Shown in pieces: positions 10,237-18,137 of a DNA stretch of 36,496 nucleotides. The notes under the pieces are model-generated. The model was not told the origin of the DNA. It searched no databases and saw nothing but the letters and a program-made list of their open reading frames with translations. Within the stretch, counting starts at the first letter, position 1; every line of letters begins with the position of its first letter. Both the position numbers and the translations under genes were made by a program. The DNA comes from Acidimicrobiales bacterium (GTDB lineage Bacteria > Actinomycetota > Acidimicrobiia > Acidimicrobiales > CADCSY01). Location: the NCBI GenBank assembly GCA_025463335.1, contig JAOBWJ010000400.1, positions 1-36,496 of the forward strand, read 5' to 3'.

Positions 10237-11100
10237 TCAGTCGGGCGATTTCCGCGGTGACTGGTCGACCGAGTCGACGACGTAGCGCTCGGGCACCATC
10301 GTCTGCACGGACTTCGGCGGGCGCTCGTAGGAACGCCGCTGGCGCGGGGGCAGGACGACGTCGTCCAGCTTCACGTGCTCGTACTCGACGAGGTCGAGCA
10401 GGTGACGCATCAGATTCAACCGGGCTGAGCGTTTGTCATCGGCCTCCACCACCCACCACGGTGACTCCTTCGTGTCCGTGTAGGCGAACATCTCGTCCTT
10501 GGCTTCCGAGTAGTCGACCCAGTGGGAGCGCGCCTCCAGGTCAATGGAGCTCAACTTCCACCGCTTGCGCGGGTTGTCGATGCGCTTCTGGAAGCGTCGT
10601 TCCTGTTCGTCGTCGCTGACCGAGAGCCAGTACTTCACGAGCATGATCCCGGATCGGATCAGCGCCGCCTCGAAATGGGGGCAGTGGCGCATGAACTCGC
10701 GGTACTCGTCATCCGTGCAGAAGCCCATGACCCGCTCGACGCCCGCTCGGTTGTACCAACTGCGGTCCATCAACACGATCTCGCCGGCGGCCGGCAGGTG
10801 GAGGACGTAGCGCTGGAAGTACCACTGGCTCCGCTCGCGCTCCGTTGGCGCGGGAAGGGCAACGACGTTGCAGAACCGCGGGTTGAGGAGCTCGGTGATT
10901 CGCTTGATCGTGCCCCCCTTGCCGGCGGTGTCCCGACCCTCGAAGAGCACGAGGAGCCGCAGGCCTTCGTGCTGAATCCATTCCTGCATCGTGAGCAGCT
11001 CCGTCTGGAGGTGCTCGAGCTCGGCTTGGTACTGGCGGCCGGTCAGCCGGATCGGCGCACCTGCCTTCATCTTGGATGTCTTGGCTACCGCGATCGTCAC
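10237..11100 (-). CDS. ppk2: Polyphosphate kinase 2 (PPK2)
   Basis: PPK2 enzymes use polyphosphate to phosphorylate nucleotides, or the reverse. This single-domain protein (287 aa from the GTG at 11100) has Walker A FEGRDTAGKGGTIKRI (about 53-68), Walker B/lid IVLMDRSWYNRAGVERVMGF with Asp111, and the family segments RWKLSSIDLEARSHWVDYSEAKDEMF and SPWWVVEADDK. The GTG is preferred because GGAGGG sits 7 bases upstream. An ATG at 11124 would add 8 residues and share its A with the stop of the upstream PAP2 gene (TGATG). The track ORF runs far upstream through that gene in the wrong frame. Length and lid motif fit the ADP-phosphorylating class I group, but substrate preference is not certain. 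Confidence 0.93.
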   Translation of the reverse strand: MTIAVAKTSKMKAGAPIRLTGRQYQAELEHLQTELLTMQEWIQHEGLRLLVLFEGRDTAGKGGTIKRITELLNPRFCNVVALPAPTERERSQWYFQRYVLHLPAAGEIVLMDRSWYNRAGVERVMGFCTDDEYREFMRHCPHFEAALIRSGIMLVKYWLSVSDDEQERRFQKRIDNPRKRWKLSSIDLEARSHWVDYSEAKDEMFAYTDTKESPWWVVEADDKRSARLNLMRHLLDLVEYEHVKLDDVVLPPRQRRSYERPPKSVQTMVPERYVVDSVDQSPRKSPD

Positions 11101-11123
11101 TGTCAGCCCTCCCTCGTCGCGCA

Positions 11124-11777
11124 TCACGCTTCGGCCAGCACGCTCCTCCGTCCGGGCACACCCGAGAGGAGGTTGAGCACCCCTCCGATCGCCAGCCCGA
11201 GCGCCGCGCCGCACAGCACGTCGAGCGGGTTGTGCGCGCCGACGTAGACCCGGGCCACCATCACCAGGCCGACGCAGCTCCACAGCACGGCCTTCCACCT
11301 GCCGTGCAGGTAGGGGGACACGAGCATGGCGAGGGCAGCAACGAGCACGGCGTGGCCGGACACGAAGCTCTCCCCGCGGATGCTCACGTCGCCGCGGCGA
11401 TGGACGTCGCTTCCGATCGAGGTCGCCGGCCGCTCGCGGGTGACCATCGCCTTCACGACCCGCTCGAGCACGAGCTTCCCCGCAGTTGCGACGAGCACCG
11501 CCACAGCGAGACGGAAGTGGCGCAACGCGGCAGCAACGGCGGCCACGATGGGCCCCACCACGACGTTCCCAAGCTGTTGGAAGGGCCAGAGCAGGGGATA
11601 GAGGGCCTGGGGCAGATCGTTGATGGCGTGGAAGACGGACTCCTCGGTCCCCGAGACCGAGCCGTCGCGGACTGCCAGCATCCCCAGGCCGAGCACGGCG
11701 ACACCGATTGCGACCACAGCAGCGTCGAGCGGGCGGCGAATCCACCGAAGAGGTGCCCGGAAAGCCTCACGATGCAT
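11124..11777 (-). CDS. PAP2-family membrane phosphatase (1)
   Basis: A 217-residue membrane protein of the phosphatidic-acid phosphatase type 2 / undecaprenyl-pyrophosphate phosphatase superfamily. All three catalytic blocks are present: KAMVTRERP, SFVSGHA and ARVYVGAHNPLDV. These give the Lys, Arg, acid His, nucleophile His and Asp. About six membrane segments are visible. I chose the ATG at 11777, with GAGAGGA upstream, over the GTG at 11792. It sits directly before ppk2, with TGATG contact, so the two form an operon. It is divergent from the lipoprotein gene. Likely substrate is a lipid or polyprenyl (pyro)phosphate on the outer face of the membrane. It is clearly paralogous to the PAP2 protein at 17496-18137 (shared FVxxxNDLPxALxPxLWP). 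Confidence 0.9.
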   Translation of the reverse strand: MHREAFRAPLRWIRRPLDAAVVAIGVAVLGLGMLAVRDGSVSGTEESVFHAINDLPQALYPLLWPFQQLGNVVVGPIVAAVAAALRHFRLAVAVLVATAGKLVLERVVKAMVTRERPATSIGSDVHRRGDVSIRGESFVSGHAVLVAALAMLVSPYLHGRWKAVLWSCVGLVMVARVYVGAHNPLDVLCGAALGLAIGGVLNLLSGVPGRRSVLAEA

Positions 11778-11895
11778 GGCCTGTCCTCTCACCAGCGACT
11801 CGCCGGCGACCGACCGAACCCTAGGCGTCGCCCGTGGTCATGTGGGACAATTGCCGCGATCCACGGGGCGCACGCCGTCCGAGAGGAGTGGACCA

Positions 11896-12831
11896 ATGCG
11901 CGGTTCCCGAAGGGCCCCAGCGCTTGGATCAACGCTGTTCCTCCTCCTCACGCTTCTCGGTTGTGCTTCGAGCTCGAGCACCGGTCAAGCCGACTCGACC
12001 GCACTGCGCGACGACGCGATCACCGTCGCCTCGTTCGACTTCGGCGAGAGCCGCCTTCTCGCCGAGATCTACTCGCAGGCGCTGGAAGCGGGTGGCTACC
12101 GCGTGCGCCGCGCCGTCGGTCTCGGACCTCGCGAGTTCGTCGCTCCGGCCCTGTCGCGGGGTCTTGTCGAGTTCGTGCCCGAGTACGCGGGCACCGCGCT
12201 CCAGTTCCTGAGCCTCGGCGTCGATGCTCCGACCGCCGATGTCGCGGCGACGCACGACGCCCTCCGGCGGGCCGCCGCCAGAGACCACATCACGACGCTC
12301 GCCGCGGCGCCCGCCCAGGATGCCAACACCTTTGTCGTCACCCGTGCGACGGCGACCGACAAGCAGCTGGGTCGCCTGAGTGATCTGTCCGGCGTGGCTG
12401 CCGATCTCACGTTCGGAGGTCCCCCTGAGTGCCCCACTCGGGCCCTGTGTCTTGGCGGGCTCAAGGACGTCTATGGGTTGTCGTTCAAGGAGTTCGTGCG
12501 CCTGGACACCGGCGGGCCCGTCACCCGCCAGGCGCTTCAGAACGGCAACGTCGACATTGCGCTGTTGTTCACCACCGACCCTGCCATCGGCGACGCCGGC
12601 CTCGTCGAGCTGGCCGACGATCGGGGACTGCAACCGGCCGAGAACATCACGCCCCTGATCCGGACGGAGGTGGCCGACCGCTGGGGGCGGCCGCTTACGG
12701 AGCTCATCGACGGCGTGTCGGAGCAGTTGACGACCAGGGGGCTTCGCGAGCTGAACGGCGAGGTGGCCGGCGCCGATGCCGACCTATCCGCGATCGCAGC
12801 GAGCTGGCTGCGCACAAGGGCGCGCCCATGA
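11896..12831 (+). CDS. Glycine-betaine/osmoprotectant-type ABC substrate-binding lipoprotein, orphan
   Basis: A 311-residue exported lipoprotein. The signal ends in the lipobox LLTLLGC with Cys23, followed by a Ser-rich linker. The mature part has the OpuAC/ProX-like periplasmic-binding fold (ITVASFDFGESRLLAEIYSQALEAGGYRV at the front, VEFVPEYAGTALQFL in the middle, VTRQALQNGNVDIALLFTTDPAI further on). These resemble the quaternary-amine-binding proteins of OpuC/YehZ systems. The ATG at 11896 follows GAGAGGAG. Its stop overlaps the start of the PAP2-kinase fusion gene (ATGA), so they are translationally coupled. No ABC permease or ATPase lies nearby, which is unusual. It may have become a ligand sensor for the fusion protein rather than a transport component. 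Confidence 0.85.
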   Translation: MRGSRRAPALGSTLFLLLTLLGCASSSSTGQADSTALRDDAITVASFDFGESRLLAEIYSQALEAGGYRVRRAVGLGPREFVAPALSRGLVEFVPEYAGTALQFLSLGVDAPTADVAATHDALRRAAARDHITTLAAAPAQDANTFVVTRATATDKQLGRLSDLSGVAADLTFGGPPECPTRALCLGGLKDVYGLSFKEFVRLDTGGPVTRQALQNGNVDIALLFTTDPAIGDAGLVELADDRGLQPAENITPLIRTEVADRWGRPLTELIDGVSEQLTTRGLRELNGEVAGADADLSAIAASWLRTRARP

Positions 12832-15041
12832 CCATTGGCGAATCCGCTACCTCCAACTCGGCCCCCGTTGTGGTGGGCGATCTGGGCTCGCCCCTGCCCC
12901 CTGCCGTCCGCCGTGCCCGTCGCCGGCGTCGACCGTCGGGGACAGCGCCGCCGCTCCCGAGAAGCATCGGCCTCACCGGAAAGGCGTGGTTGGTGACCTT
13001 CGTCGCGTTGGTGGCGTGGGGCATCGTCACCTTCACGTCGGACGCAGTCCAACGGAGCACCGACCGTGCCGACGCGGCGATCCTCCGGTGGTTCGCGAGC
13101 CTGCGTACGCCGTGGCTGACAGATGTGATGAAGCCCATCGGACGCGTGGGCTCGGGCTGGACCATCACCGCGGTGACCGTGGCTCTGCTCGTTGCCCTCG
13201 CCGTGTTCAAGCGGTGGCGGCACCTCCTCACCTTCCTGGGCAGCCTCGTTGTCTTGTTCTTCATCGGCGCCCGCCTGTACGAGGGCTTCACCCGCCCTCG
13301 GCCGTTCGATGTGACGACGATCGACCGCTGGGCGGGCTTCTCGCTTCCCGCGGCGCCGGTCGGGGTGGTGGCCTTCGTCGCCCTCGGGATCACCTACTCG
13401 CTCGTCGTCGCCGGTCGACCCCGGACGATCGCCAAGGGCATCACCGCGCTCATCGTCGTCGTCTTCGCCGGATCGCAGCTCTACCTGGCGACGTACCACC
13501 CCTTCGATCTCGTGGTCGGGATCGCGCTGGCGACCGCCGTGTCGGTCAACGCGTTCCGGTTCTTCACGCCCAACGACTCCTTCCCCGTCACCTACCGGCG
13601 GGGCAAGACGGCCCATCTCGACGTCGGCGGACGGCGGGGCGAGGCGATCAAGCAGGCGGTGCAGGACCAACTCGGGCTCACCGTCCTCGAGATCAAGCCG
13701 GTGGGTCTCGAGGGATCGGGCGGCTCGACCCCGCTCCGGCTTCGCATCGCCGGCGACCCGGACACCTTCGTGTTCGGGAAGCTCTACGCGATGAGCCATG
13801 TGCGCTCCGATCGTTGGTACAAGCTGGGGCGGACGATCCTCTACGGGCGGCTCGAGGATGAAGCCCCGTTCCAGTCGGTCCGACGGCTGGTCGAGTACGA
13901 GGACTACGCCGCCCGCCTCCTCTCGGATGTCGGCATTCCGACGGCGACGTCGTACGGCATCGTCGAGATGACCCCGGAACGCGAGTACCTGCTCGTGACC
14001 GAGTTCTTCGACGGCGCCAAGGAGATCGGGGAGGCCGAGGTCGACGACGACATCATCGATCAGAGCCTGCGGTTGATCCGCAAGCTCTGGGACGCGGGGT
14101 TGGCCCACCGCGACATCAAGCCCGCCAACCTCCTGGTCCACGACGGCCAGGTGGAGCTCATCGACGTGTTCTTCGTCCAGGTCCGGCCGTCGCCGTGGCG
14201 CCAGGCCGTCGACCTGGCAAACATGATGCTGGTCCTCGCCGTCCGCACGGACGCCGAGCGGGTCTACGAGCGGGCGCTGCGGCTGTTCACCCCGGACGAC
14301 ATCGCCGAGGCCTTCGCCGCCACCCGCGGCGTCGCCAGCCCGACCCAGTTGCGGACGATGATGAAGCGCGACGGACGGGATCTGTTGGCGCAGTTCCGCG
14401 CGCTCGCGCCCAGCCGCCGTCCGATCGCGCTCCAACGCTGGAACGTCCGGCGAATCGCCTATTCCCTCGCCCTCGTCCTCGGCGCCATCATCGTCGGGCA
14501 GTTCACCGGGGGCCTTCTGTACCCCACCTACGACCTGCCGCTCGCCAGCCGACCGACCTGTGGAACCAGCGACGTGATGGTCCTCGCGGCCCAGTCGGTC
14601 CCGTCGGCAACGTCGGTTCCGTGTGTGGCGACCCTCCCTGCCGGATGGACCATCGACGGCCTGGACGTCAAGCGCGGTAGGGCGAGGTTCTGGCTCGGCT
14701 CCGATGTCGGCGGCGATCGCGCCGTGGAGGCCACGCTTGTGCCGAGGGAGAGCTGCGACGTGTCGGCCGCCACCGAGGTGCCGAGCGACGAGGTCGGCAT
14801 GCGCCGGTACGAACAGCCCGAGCAACTCCCTCCCACGATGCGGAGCGTCCGCTACTACGTGTTCCCGGGCGGCTGCATCACGTATCGAATGGCCTTCGAC
14901 AGCGCCGCCACGTCGGCTCTGCTGTTCGACGTCGACAGCGCGCTGGGCTTCCAGCCTCGGACCGAGTTGGTCGACTACGTACGGGACCGGAACGGTCTCC
15001 GCCTCTGTGGGGCAGGCGTCGATTGCACGGGCGAGGGCTGA
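12828..15041 (+). CDS. Membrane fusion: degenerate PAP2 domain + protein-kinase-like domain + C-terminal outer domain
   Basis: A 737-residue protein starting at the ATG at 12828. After a basic N-terminus, residues about 50-245 have about five membrane segments and PAP2 topology: TRPRP (155-159) and YHPFD (His224, Asp227) are recognisable, but the central SGH is replaced by AAP (FSLPAAPVG), so acid catalysis is probably lost. Residues about 255-530 form a kinase-like domain: Lys318 (VFGKLY), helix-C Glu356 or Glu358, HRDIKPANLL with Asp429 and Asn434, and IDVFF in place of DFG, keeping Asp446. A membrane segment at about 545-565 is followed by about 170 residues with six or so Cys, probably outside the cell. 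The domain combination suggests a receptor-like or lipid-handling kinase. No close named family is known to me. Confidence 0.85.
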   Translation: MTIGESATSNSAPVVVGDLGSPLPPAVRRARRRRRPSGTAPPLPRSIGLTGKAWLVTFVALVAWGIVTFTSDAVQRSTDRADAAILRWFASLRTPWLTDVMKPIGRVGSGWTITAVTVALLVALAVFKRWRHLLTFLGSLVVLFFIGARLYEGFTRPRPFDVTTIDRWAGFSLPAAPVGVVAFVALGITYSLVVAGRPRTIAKGITALIVVVFAGSQLYLATYHPFDLVVGIALATAVSVNAFRFFTPNDSFPVTYRRGKTAHLDVGGRRGEAIKQAVQDQLGLTVLEIKPVGLEGSGGSTPLRLRIAGDPDTFVFGKLYAMSHVRSDRWYKLGRTILYGRLEDEAPFQSVRRLVEYEDYAARLLSDVGIPTATSYGIVEMTPEREYLLVTEFFDGAKEIGEAEVDDDIIDQSLRLIRKLWDAGLAHRDIKPANLLVHDGQVELIDVFFVQVRPSPWRQAVDLANMMLVLAVRTDAERVYERALRLFTPDDIAEAFAATRGVASPTQLRTMMKRDGRDLLAQFRALAPSRRPIALQRWNVRRIAYSLALVLGAIIVGQFTGGLLYPTYDLPLASRPTCGTSDVMVLAAQSVPSATSVPCVATLPAGWTIDGLDVKRGRARFWLGSDVGGDRAVEATLVPRESCDVSAATEVPSDEVGMRRYEQPEQLPPTMRSVRYYVFPGGCITYRMAFDSAATSALLFDVDSALGFQPRTELVDYVRDRNGLRLCGAGVDCTGEG

Positions 15042-15064
15042 CGAACCGTGGAGGTACTGGACCG

Positions 15065-17470
15065 ATGAGCTCCGTCGCCCACCCGCCGATCAAGCTCGGT
15101 CTCCCGTCGGTGAACTTCGACACCAGTCCCGCCGGCGAGCGGTACTTCCGTCATCCCGGCGACGTCGTCAGGTTGGTGCTGTGGGGCACCGGTGTCTTTG
15201 TGCTGGCACTGCTGGTGGCCGTGGGGACGTCGACGAGCGACGGTGTCACCACCGATCTCGGACGAGTCGCCGCCCGCCTGGCTCTGTCGATCCGCCAGCT
15301 CGTGCTGGCGCTCACACAGGTGGTCGCCGTCGTGGTCCCTGCGGTCGTGGCAGTTGGCCTCGTCGTCCGGCAACGCTGGCGGCGCCTCGGCGTCGTCACG
15401 GCGGCCGCTGTCCTCGGGGCTGGTGCCTGGCTGGGGCTCGAACGGGGGCTGGATCTACCTGGCCGGCTCGCCGACGCAGTGACCACCGGCACCTGGGTGG
15501 CCTCGCCGCGGTTCCCCTCGCTGGCCTACCTCGCCGGTGCAACCGCCGCCGGCATGGTGGGGAAGCCGTGGCTCTCCCGATCATGGCGGCGAGCTGCCGA
15601 CATCGGCGTCCTCGTGCTGGCAACGGTGATGGCGGTCGCCGGGAGTGCCGGTGTGCCCGAGCTGCTCCTCGCCGTGTGCACGGGCGCCGCAATCGGTGCC
15701 GCGCTGTTGGTGGTCGTCGGCGCACCGAATCGACGACCGTCGCCTGCGGCCGTCGCCGCCGCGCTCGGCGACGCCGGCTTCGACGTCGCCGGGCTCGAGC
15801 TTCGTCGCGCCCAGGGTGGCCGGGCCCAGCTGTACTTCGCCGAGTCCACGACGGGCGAGCGGGCGTTCCTGAAGGTCTACGGCCGTGACAGCCGCGACGC
15901 CGATCTCCTGTACCGCGGCTATCGCGCGCTCCTGCTGCGCGGCCCCAACGACAGGTGGCCGTCGTCCTCACTGAAGCAGGACGTCGAGCACGAAGCGTTC
16001 CTCTTGCTCCTCGCCCGGCAAGGCGGCGTCGTCTCTCCGGACGTGGAACTGCTCGCTGCCCTTCCTGACGGCTCGGTCGTGCTCACCATGGAGTACATCG
16101 ACGGGGACCCACTCGACGCGCTGCCGCCCGACGACATCGACGACCGGGTCCTCGACGCCACCTGGCGCGACGTCGCCGTGCTGCACCACCACCGACTTGC
16201 GCATCGGGCGCTCCGCGCCGGGAACATCCTGGTGGACGACCACCGCCCGGTGATCGTCGACTTCGGCTTCGCGGAGGAGTCGGCGACCGCGAGGATGCAG
16301 GCGCTCGACCGAGCCGAACTCCTCACGTCGCTCGCTGAGCTCGTCGGCCCCGAACGTGCCGTTGCCGCCGCGGCGCGGGAGATCGATCGAGCCGACCTGT
16401 CGACCGCCCTCCCCTTCTTGCAGCCGCTCGGGCTCTCCGCCGCGACCCGGAAGCGGGCCTCGAAGTCGCTGCTCACCGACCTGAGGAGCGCGTTGGCTGC
16501 CGTCACCGGCACGGAACCGGTTCCACTCGAACGTCTCGTGCGGGTGAAGCCCCGAACGCTGCTCACCATCGCCGCGCTCGTCGGCGCCTTCTACGTGTTC
16601 CTCCCCCAACTGGCAAACGTCGGTGACAGCTTCCGGGCGTTGCGCTCGGCGAACTGGGGATGGCTGGTCGTGGCGGCCTTGCTCTCCGGCCTCACGTATG
16701 TCGCCTCGGCGGTCGGCCTGTCCGGTGGGGTGCCCGAGCACTTGCCTCCCATCCCCACCGTCGAGGTGCAGCTGGCATCGTCATTCGTCAACCGGGTCAC
16801 ACCCGCCAACGTCGGCGGGATGGCGTTGAACGTGCGCTTCCTGCGGAAGGCCGGCGTCGATCCGGCGGAAGCGGTGACGGGTGTCGGGCTCAACTCGATC
16901 GCCGGCGCCATCGTCCACCTGGTGTTGCTCGTCTTGTTCTTCGCCTGGGCGGGCCAGGCCAAGGAGGGCGGGTTCTCCATCCCCGCGGGAAGCAAGGTCC
17001 TCATCGCCATCGCCGCCGTCCTGGCCGTCGCTGGTGTCGTTGCCGCGACACGGCGAGGGCGCCGGCTCCTTCGCACGCACGTGGTCGGCTTCCTGAAGCG
17101 TTCGGTGGCGAGCATGGCGACACTGGCCCGATCACCGTTGAAGATGGCTGCCCTCTTCGGCGGCTCCGCCGGTGTCACGCTCGCCTACATCAGCGCCCTC
17201 GCGGCATCCGTCGCCGCATTCCACGGAGGCGTCACGGTCGCCGAAGTGGGCGCCGTCTACCTGGGATCGTCGATGATCGCGGCGGCGGCACCCACGCCCG
17301 GCGGACTGGGTGCACTCGAGGCGGCGCTCGTCGCGGGATTCACCGGAGTGGGCATGGAACCTGGCGTCGCAGTCGCGGCCGTACTCGCGTACCGGCTGGT
17401 GACGTACTGGTTGCCGGTCCTCCCCGGGTGGTTCTGCTTCCACCTGTTGGAGCGCCGTGACCTCATCTGA
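15065..17470 (+). CDS. Membrane fusion: N-terminal membrane region + kinase-like domain + LPG-synthase/YbhN flippase-like domain
   Basis: An 801-residue protein. The ATG at 15065 is 23 bases after the upstream gene, with GGAGG 11 bases before it. Residues about 33-220 hold six or so membrane segments; FPSLAY occupies the place of PAP2 FPSGH, so a decayed PAP2 origin is possible. Residues about 225-480 are kinase-like: Lys270 (AFLKVYG), Glu308 or Glu310, YIDGDPL hinge, HRALRAGNILV and VDFGFAEES. The catalytic HRD Asp is Ala382, while the DFG is intact. Residues about 495-800 form the LPG_synthase_TM/YbhN family domain (FVNRVTPANVGGMALNVRFL, GLNSIAGAIVH, APTPGGLGALEAAL), as in MprF flippases, without the lysyl-transferase domain. 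This protein probably moves or binds a lipid, with the pseudokinase in a regulatory role (inference). Confidence 0.88.
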   Translation: MSSVAHPPIKLGLPSVNFDTSPAGERYFRHPGDVVRLVLWGTGVFVLALLVAVGTSTSDGVTTDLGRVAARLALSIRQLVLALTQVVAVVVPAVVAVGLVVRQRWRRLGVVTAAAVLGAGAWLGLERGLDLPGRLADAVTTGTWVASPRFPSLAYLAGATAAGMVGKPWLSRSWRRAADIGVLVLATVMAVAGSAGVPELLLAVCTGAAIGAALLVVVGAPNRRPSPAAVAAALGDAGFDVAGLELRRAQGGRAQLYFAESTTGERAFLKVYGRDSRDADLLYRGYRALLLRGPNDRWPSSSLKQDVEHEAFLLLLARQGGVVSPDVELLAALPDGSVVLTMEYIDGDPLDALPPDDIDDRVLDATWRDVAVLHHHRLAHRALRAGNILVDDHRPVIVDFGFAEESATARMQALDRAELLTSLAELVGPERAVAAAAREIDRADLSTALPFLQPLGLSAATRKRASKSLLTDLRSALAAVTGTEPVPLERLVRVKPRTLLTIAALVGAFYVFLPQLANVGDSFRALRSANWGWLVVAALLSGLTYVASAVGLSGGVPEHLPPIPTVEVQLASSFVNRVTPANVGGMALNVRFLRKAGVDPAEAVTGVGLNSIAGAIVHLVLLVLFFAWAGQAKEGGFSIPAGSKVLIAIAAVLAVAGVVAATRRGRRLLRTHVVGFLKRSVASMATLARSPLKMAALFGGSAGVTLAYISALAASVAAFHGGVTVAEVGAVYLGSSMIAAAAPTPGGLGALEAALVAGFTGVGMEPGVAVAAVLAYRLVTYWLPVLPGWFCFHLLERRDLI

Positions 17471-17495: not shown

Positions 17496-18137
17496 TCAAC
17501 GGCGCTCCTCGACGGGCAGTCCCTCACCTCCGAGACCGAACGACCAACGCACGAGTGTCCCCGTCAGCAGCCCGAGCCCAGCGCCCCCGATCGCATCGAG
17601 CGGCAGGTGAGCGCCGGCGTAGATCCGCGCGACCGCGACCGTGGTCGCCAGCCCGTAGGCCACGGGCCGCCATTCACGGGGAAGCGATGGCGTGAGCACC
17701 GCGGCGAGGGCAAACGCGACGGCGGCGTGGCCGGAGACGTAGCCGACGCCGCTCGCCTTCTCCCGGATGTGGAAGTCGATGAGCAGCGCCCCGGGGCGTC
17801 CTCGCGACACGAGCGCCTTGACCACCTTCGCTGACCACCAAGCGACCTGGCCGGCGGCCACCGTGGCCAGGGTCAACCTTCGTTGCCGGGTGAGGGTGAA
17901 GACGGTGGCGGCGACGGCGAGCGATCCCGGAAGGCTCCCGAGCTGCATCGGCGGCCACAACACCGGCCACAACGCGCCAGGTAGGTCGTTCACGAACGTG
18001 AAGACCCGCGCTTCCCACGGGGGTACGTCGTGGCCCGCCACGACGATGAGCCAACTTCCCGCCAGCGCAGCGCTCCCGCCGAGAACTGCCGCGACCTCGG
18101 CGGCGTTGCCCCGCCGACGGCCCGCCGAGGTGCTCAC
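17496..18137 (-). CDS. PAP2-family membrane phosphatase (2)
   Basis: A 213-residue membrane phosphatase starting at GTG 18137. Catalytic blocks are intact: KALVSRGRP, GYVSGHAA and ARIYAGAHLPLDAIGG. About six membrane segments. It converges with the flippase-kinase gene with only 25 bases between the stops. The block FVNDLPGALWPVLWPPMQLGSLPG closely matches the first PAP2 protein of this cluster (AINDLPQALYPLLWPFQQLGNVVVG), so they are paralogues flanking the two kinase-fusion genes. The activity is expected on a lipid phosphate at the outer membrane face. Candidates are phosphatidate, phosphatidylglycerol phosphate, polyprenyl pyrophosphate or a decaprenyl-sugar phosphate, and the sequence does not decide between them. 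Confidence 0.9.
   Translation of the reverse strand: MSTSAGRRRGNAAEVAAVLGGSAALAGSWLIVVAGHDVPPWEARVFTFVNDLPGALWPVLWPPMQLGSLPGSLAVAATVFTLTRQRRLTLATVAAGQVAWWSAKVVKALVSRGRPGALLIDFHIREKASGVGYVSGHAAVAFALAAVLTPSLPREWRPVAYGLATTVAVARIYAGAHLPLDAIGGAGLGLLTGTLVRWSFGLGGEGLPVEERR

Follow-up and report, generated by a model that had tools for sequence, protein, structure and literature searches.

Two neighbouring genes, here called P1 and P2, lie within a 36,496-nucleotide stretch of DNA from an Acidimicrobiales bacterium (assembly GCA_025463335.1, contig JAOBWJ010000400.1, positions 1 to 36,496 of the forward strand; hereafter, the window), and each encodes a membrane protein combining a PAP2-like part with a kinase-like domain. 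The source assembly is GC-rich and about 4 Mb in size, and the nearest named records to the window are metagenome-assembled genomes (MAGs) labelled Acidimicrobiia and Actinomycetes. The analysis summarised here predicts that P1 is an active kinase and that P2 is a pseudokinase fused to a flippase-like domain, a pairing that suggests a kinase-controlled lipid transport unit. The genes at the locus are these:

12828 to 15041, plus strand: P1 gene, 737 amino acids
15065 to 17470, plus strand: P2 gene, ATG start, 801 amino acids
11896 to 12831, plus strand: OpuAC-type solute-binding lipoprotein gene, 311 amino acids, lipobox LTLLGC (Pfam PF04069, E=6e-42)
11124 to 11792, minus strand: PAP2-A, a stand-alone PAP2 phosphatase (Pfam PF01569, E=7.5e-17)
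17496 to 18137, minus strand: PAP2-B, a stand-alone PAP2 phosphatase convergent with P2 (Pfam PF01569, E=8.6e-15)

Both P1 and P2 are real open reading frames, and an earlier sequence-only reading had placed the two adjacent frames (12828 to 17470), their motifs and the residue numbers Asp429 and Ala382 correctly. The stop codon of the OpuAC-type gene and the start codon of P1 overlap by 4 bp and only 23 bp lie between the P1 stop and the P2 start, so that the three genes look like a single operon. This cassette is flanked on both sides by the stand-alone PAP2 genes: PAP2-A has intact KxxxxxxRP, SGH and RxxxxAHxxxD motifs and the phosphatase motifs of PAP2-B are likewise intact. No ATP-binding cassette (ABC) permease or ATPase for the OpuAC-type gene was recognised among those of its neighbours that could be identified (genes further away in the genome were not searched), and the arrangement expected for ABC-type glycine betaine uptake, with the solute-binding protein encoded alongside permease and ATPase, is thus absent from them.

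The P1 kinase domain

P1 comprises a PAP2-like membrane part (about residues 48-250), a kinase domain (255-545), a transmembrane helix (about 546-564) and an extracytoplasmic tail (566-737). The corresponding features are:

13590 to 14462, plus strand: P1 kinase domain
13779 to 13781, plus strand: P1 Lys318
13899 to 13901, plus strand: P1 Glu358
14112 to 14114, plus strand: P1 Asp429
14127 to 14129, plus strand: P1 Asn434
14163 to 14165, plus strand: P1 Asp446
14523 to 15038, plus strand: P1 extracytoplasmic beta-rich tail, which many relatives encode as a downstream gene of its own

The two aspartates fall within window positions 14106-14171 (HRDIKPANLLVHDGQVELIDVF), which encode HRDIKPAN (containing Asp429) and then ELIDVFF. 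The earlier reading took IDVFF as the loss of DFG and proposed that P1 and P2 had each lost a different catalytic element. That reciprocity is not borne out: P1 has DVF rather than the full DFG triplet, but IDVFF retains the metal-binding Asp446 and differs from DFG only at the phenylalanine and glycine, and variants of the form D-x-[AFS] are the norm for the family. All five residues by which catalytic competence was judged (the beta3 Lys, alphaC Glu, HRD Asp, catalytic-loop Asn and DFG-position Asp) are present in P1, and K318, E358, H427, R428, D429, N434 and D446 are invariant in an alignment of 35 sequences (A1). The HRD and DFG-position aspartates are found in every P1-type protein, approximately 41 distinct proteins from the class (what is left of 47 aligned rows once three strays of P2 type and three overlapping fragments are discounted) and 17 proteins from other parts of the phylum. 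The residues that follow the DFG-position Asp are mostly V, L, P, A or F and then A, F or S, and the pattern D[VLPAF]xF holds in nearly all of these proteins. In RIO and APH-type kinases, the phenylalanine and glycine of DFG are likewise poorly conserved.

The kinase domain is the most conserved part of P1: compared with a related locus, L004, it shows 73% identity and the PAP2-like part 46%. Since all of the catalytic residues are conserved and the kinase is the best conserved of the P1 domains, P1 is predicted to be catalytically competent, that is, an active kinase. AlphaFold2 models of P1 and P2 each have a mean pLDDT of 85, with pTM values of 0.76 and 0.64, respectively. Foldseek searches with the full-length models returned generic kinases only, with high root-mean-square deviations, which makes the ranking of folds weak evidence.

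The P2 pseudokinase and its flippase-like domain

P2 begins with a degenerate PAP2-like membrane part (residues 30-220), followed by a pseudokinase domain (228-485) and an LPG_synthase_TM flippase-like domain (496-797):

15746 to 16519, plus strand: P2 pseudokinase domain
15872 to 15874, plus strand: P2 Lys270
15992 to 15994, plus strand: P2 Glu310
16208 to 16210, plus strand: P2 Ala382, replacing the catalytic Asp
16223 to 16225, plus strand: P2 Asn387
16259 to 16261, plus strand: P2 Asp399
16550 to 17455, plus strand: P2 LPG_synthase_TM (MprF-type flippase) domain (Pfam PF03706, E=1.4e-35; NCBIfam TIGR00374 above cut-off)

Ala382 and Asp399 are encoded within window positions 16202-16267 (HRALRAGNILVDDHRPVIVDFG), where the motifs read HRALRAGN (containing Ala382) and then VDFGFA. 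The HRD aspartate alone is lost, K270, E310, N387 and D399 all being kept. The window P2 forms one clade with its counterparts at loci L005, L009 and L004 (100% support in the Shimodaira-Hasegawa-like approximate likelihood ratio test, SH-aLRT), in which the HRD-Asp position is occupied by A, A, A and S. At least one catalytic residue has therefore been lost, with the loss conserved among orthologues, and by this definition P2 is a clean pseudokinase within its clade. The idea of a kinase beside a pseudokinase thus survives without its reciprocity, P1 having all of the kinase residues and P2 having lost the HRD Asp clade-wide. The homologue alignment that the sequence-only reading had called for finds conservation on both sides, of the DVF-type variant across the P1 family and of HRD-Asp loss across the P2 clade.

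Strain-specific decay or sequencing error was considered as the cause of Ala382 and rejected, the loss being clade-wide and the gene under purifying selection. For P1 and P2 alike, the ratio of nonsynonymous to synonymous substitution rates (dN/dS) between the window and its relatives is approximately 0.19-0.21 (L005) or 0.31-0.36 (L004), with dS near saturation; these values indicate that neither gene is decaying. The match of P2 to PF03706 scores 123.6 bits against a cut-off of 33.4 and covers profile positions 4-302 of 302, placing the domain within that family. It is also the most conserved part of P2, with 68-69% identity to L004 and L009 compared with 57-60% for the kinase-like domain, whose nearest solved folds are PRPK/Bud32 and PknA/PknB.

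The HRD Asp is kept in 31 of 89 P2-type proteins and substituted in the other 58 by many different residues. A quick IQ-TREE phylogeny, built under LG+G4 without the motif columns, requires 14 changes at this position, at least 11 of them on starred branches, and losses also occur in the absence of P1. Because the canonical HRDLRxxN...DFG is found in widely separated clades, it is likelier, we infer, that the Asp was lost repeatedly than that it was regained repeatedly. At another locus (L080:4240-10182, G004:C7), a single 1981-amino-acid frame carries a tandem pair of P2-type copies, of which one retains the HRD Asp (HRDLRASN) and the other lacks it (HRQLRPDH), a possible in-frame tandem fusion.

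A proposed division of labour from a single ancestor

Profile-profile alignment pairs P1 94-562 with P2 71-521 at 100% probability over 437 columns, setting Asp429 on Ala382, Asp446 on Asp399 and the I-D-V of P1 on the V-D-F of P2. On this alignment, P1 and P2 are paralogues. In both, the PAP2 site of the N-terminal part is dead: neither part contains the PAP2 motifs KxxxxxxRP, PSGH and SRxxxxxHxxxD, SGH is lost in both, and the degenerate sites read FSLPAAP and SQLYLATYHPFD in P1 and FPSLAYL and AGSAGVPE in P2. The Pfam PAP2 profile scores 15.5 bits on P1 (cut-off 27.2) and does not match P2.

A plasmid-borne Mycolicibacterium vanbaalenii protein of 804 amino acids (WP_310833646.1), whose gene adjoins a PAP2 gene, unites PAP2, kinase and flippase in one polypeptide with the PAP2 SGH/AH motifs, HRDLRLAN and VDFG all intact, yet is annotated only as a 'lysylphosphatidylglycerol synthase domain-containing protein'. 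Some relatives within the class (L146, L189 and L048) likewise bring these features together. The architecture of WP_310833646.1 is likely to represent the undivided ancestral state, and with both sets of catalytic motifs intact in this single protein, the P1/P2 pair looks like a split of the ancestor's jobs. The simplest history would be that a trifunctional ancestor was duplicated, after which the kinase role passed to P1, the flippase role to P2 and the phosphatase role to separate genes. P1 would then have kept an intact kinase (its PAP2 site is dead, it lacks a flippase domain and it carries the extracytoplasmic tail); P2 would have kept the flippase-like domain and the residues for ATP and Mg, its PAP2 site being dead and its catalytic Asp gone; and PAP2 activity would be supplied by the two neighbouring stand-alone genes.

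P2 is not accompanied by an intact PAP2 gene as a general rule, a regular-expression scan finding the full motif set at only 13 of 82 P2 loci, several of these sets being inside P2 itself and many loci having short flanks. Beside P1 at locus L072 is a P2-type PAP2-kinase protein (10333-11838) without a flippase domain, in which the PAP2 motifs lost from the window P2 are intact and the kinase Asp is gone (HGSLHAGH).

Comparison with known systems

By analogy, the closest working analogue of P2 is MviN (Rv3910) of Mycobacterium tuberculosis, a protein with a different transporter fold. MviN is a multi-spanning peptidoglycan-synthesis protein whose cytoplasmic ActPs3 pseudokinase is under the control of the active kinase PknB; this pseudokinase has lost all three motifs, does not bind ATP and acts via recruitment of FhaA (PMC12599244). 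Like P2, MviN fuses a multi-spanning membrane protein to a pseudokinase domain, but PknB is neither its paralogue nor the product of an adjacent gene. P2 also falls outside the definition of ActPs3 (loss of all three motifs, an activation-loop deletion and no ATP binding), since it keeps Lys270, Asn387 and Asp399. The pseudokinase-flippase is thus a known idea, of which the window pair is a variant.

Other comparisons are partial. MprF shares the LPG_synthase_TM family (PF03706, TIGR00374) with the C-terminal domain of P2, but has a C-terminal synthase domain where P2 instead has N-terminal PAP2-like and pseudokinase domains. By profile and by fold, the kinase-like domains of P2 and P1 come nearest to the compact kinase domains of Bud32/PRPK, RIO and Kdo/WaaP; these proteins are mostly soluble, and not one of them has PAP2-like and flippase domains attached. 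WP_310833646.1 resembles P2 in its three-domain architecture, neighbouring PAP2 gene and DFG motif, but keeps the PAP2 SGH/AH motifs and HRD Asp that P2 has lost. M. tuberculosis Rv0585c was considered as a candidate P2 orthologue, a guess that could not be verified. In the GlnH-GlnX-PknG system of Actinobacteria, a solute-binding lipoprotein acts on the kinase PknG from within one operon and without transport (PMC6069109). The window likewise encodes a solute-binding lipoprotein, a membrane protein and a kinase in one operon without transport, but the kinase and solute-binding protein family are different and GlnH-GlnX-PknG has no flippase or PAP2.

We found no description of the PAP2-kinase-flippase combination in the literature. 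Proteins of this type occur in Acidimicrobiia and other actinobacteria, including Mycolicibacterium, and are annotated by their flippase domain only. Their kinase site has died repeatedly and independently while the flippase was retained, which offers a natural series in which to ask what part a kinase domain plays in a flippase, and the P1/P2 pair would make testable the control of bacterial lipid flipping through a kinase-pseudokinase pair.

A proposed mechanism and its alternatives

The paralogy, motif states, fusion partners and gene adjacency described above are read from the sequence; we infer that P1 is active as a kinase, that P2 binds nucleotide and that the two are in contact, and likewise the flippase substrate and the signal. 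We propose, at about even odds, that P1 and P2 divided the jobs of a PAP2-kinase(-flippase) protein between them, and that a lipoprotein-sensing P1 controls the P2 flippase through the pseudokinase domain. Sensing of an extracytoplasmic ligand would fall to the OpuAC-type lipoprotein together with the tail of P1, and P1 would signal in the cytoplasm, where the nucleotide-binding pseudokinase domain of P2 would receive the signal, by heterodimerisation or phosphorylation, and gate a flippase whose cargo, a (phospho)lipid or lipid carrier, may then be dephosphorylated outside by the PAP2 enzymes. The fullest version, in which the P2 pseudokinase is the dedicated target of a lipoprotein-activated membrane kinase and the pair, split from a trifunctional phosphatase-kinase-flippase, switches lipid flipping, we regard as doubtful.

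Several observations weigh against the proposal. In the sampled genomes, mostly fragmented MAGs searched at fixed E-value cut-offs, P2-type proteins are about three times commoner than P1 (103 of 395 class genomes against 36 of 395, with different cut-offs for the two) and most P2-bearing genomes have no P1, so that P2 does not need P1 in general. The linked P2-like protein of L260 keeps its Asp (HGDLVGAN...VDFG). The OpuAC-type gene, scored within limited flanks, is missing from about half of P1 loci. Finally, the P1 kinase is closest to Kdo/WaaP, RIO and Bud32-like kinases and may therefore act on a lipid or sugar instead of on P2.

The first of these points favours an alternative that we consider possible, if somewhat improbable, namely that the P2 pseudokinase serves its own flippase, regulating it within the molecule or sensing nucleotide, with no special relation to P1, adjacency having arisen by duplication in a lipid-metabolism cluster. 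Many genomes without P1 have P2 family members, both degenerate and intact, and the HRD Asp is lost in 44 of the 71 P2 proteins from such genomes. Against this, the P1-P2 operon is retained in several diverged MAGs and loss of the HRD Asp alone, with Lys, Asn and DFG-Asp kept, is enriched in P1-bearing genomes (12/18 versus 8/71; raw Fisher 5e-6), albeit mostly in two clades. The Asp is missing from all nine P1-linked P2 proteins of the tree (raw Fisher p=0.024), a count that leaves L260 outside. The rows compared share kinship, most coming from two clades, and phylogenetically independent informative pairs are too few; an association of HRD loss with P1 linkage was accordingly set aside as significant in raw form only, with no phylogenetic support and L260 as a counterexample. 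On these distributions, P1-P2 pairing is plausible for this operon but is no rule of the family.

A metabolic explanation is likewise somewhat improbable but serious: P1 would be a WaaP/Kdo-like kinase acting on a membrane lipid or lipid-linked glycan, P2 would flip the product and PAP2 would reverse the phosphorylation, with no signalling involved. The P1 kinase domain scores just above the Kdo/WaaP cut-off of Pfam (23.0 bits against 21.3) and only approaches that for Pkinase, hence the weight given to a lipid or sugar substrate; its neighbours, moreover, are lipid phosphatases and a flippase-like protein. The closest PDB sequences, however, include Bud32 and the protein kinase PknA, and the linked solute-binding lipoprotein and extracytoplasmic tail resemble parts of a sensor. 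That Ala382 leaves P2 active, through a substitute acid or the kind of chemistry (AMPylation) by which kinase-fold proteins without an HRD Asp, such as SelO, can be active, is very improbable: Lys, Glu, Asn and the DFG Asp are all retained in the window clade, but across the wider family the residue that replaces the HRD Asp varies freely (A, S, N, H, G, R, W, Q, E and others), as expected for lost catalysis, and the kinase-like part of P2 is less conserved than the flippase part.

Genomic context in relatives

The kinase, PAP2 and LPG_synthase_TM parts recur across relatives, either fused or as neighbouring genes; where there are no fusions, separate genes for P1, the tail, PAP2 and LPG_synthase_TM lie close together. 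At 48 of 53 P1 loci, the tail either forms part of P1 or has its own gene alongside, and the OpuAC-type gene adjoins P1 at 24 of 53, counts in which one locus was entered twice by the script and which are lower bounds, as some loci are short contigs. The nearest P2-type relatives lie directly behind P1 in L004, L005 and L006, which come from independent MAGs, and in L007 and L009 the P1-P2 operon is truncated. L004 (JANWJC010000082.1), whose P1-P2-PAP2 locus is 59% identical to the window, comes from a MAG labelled Acidobacteria; the contig label or binning may be wrong, or the locus may have been transferred. In another group, a large gene family adjoins P1 (L196:6583-9537, L207:1309-4275 and L208:6500-10279), the L196 member of which matches the Pfam family of MMPL, a lipid transporter of the resistance-nodulation-division (RND) type.

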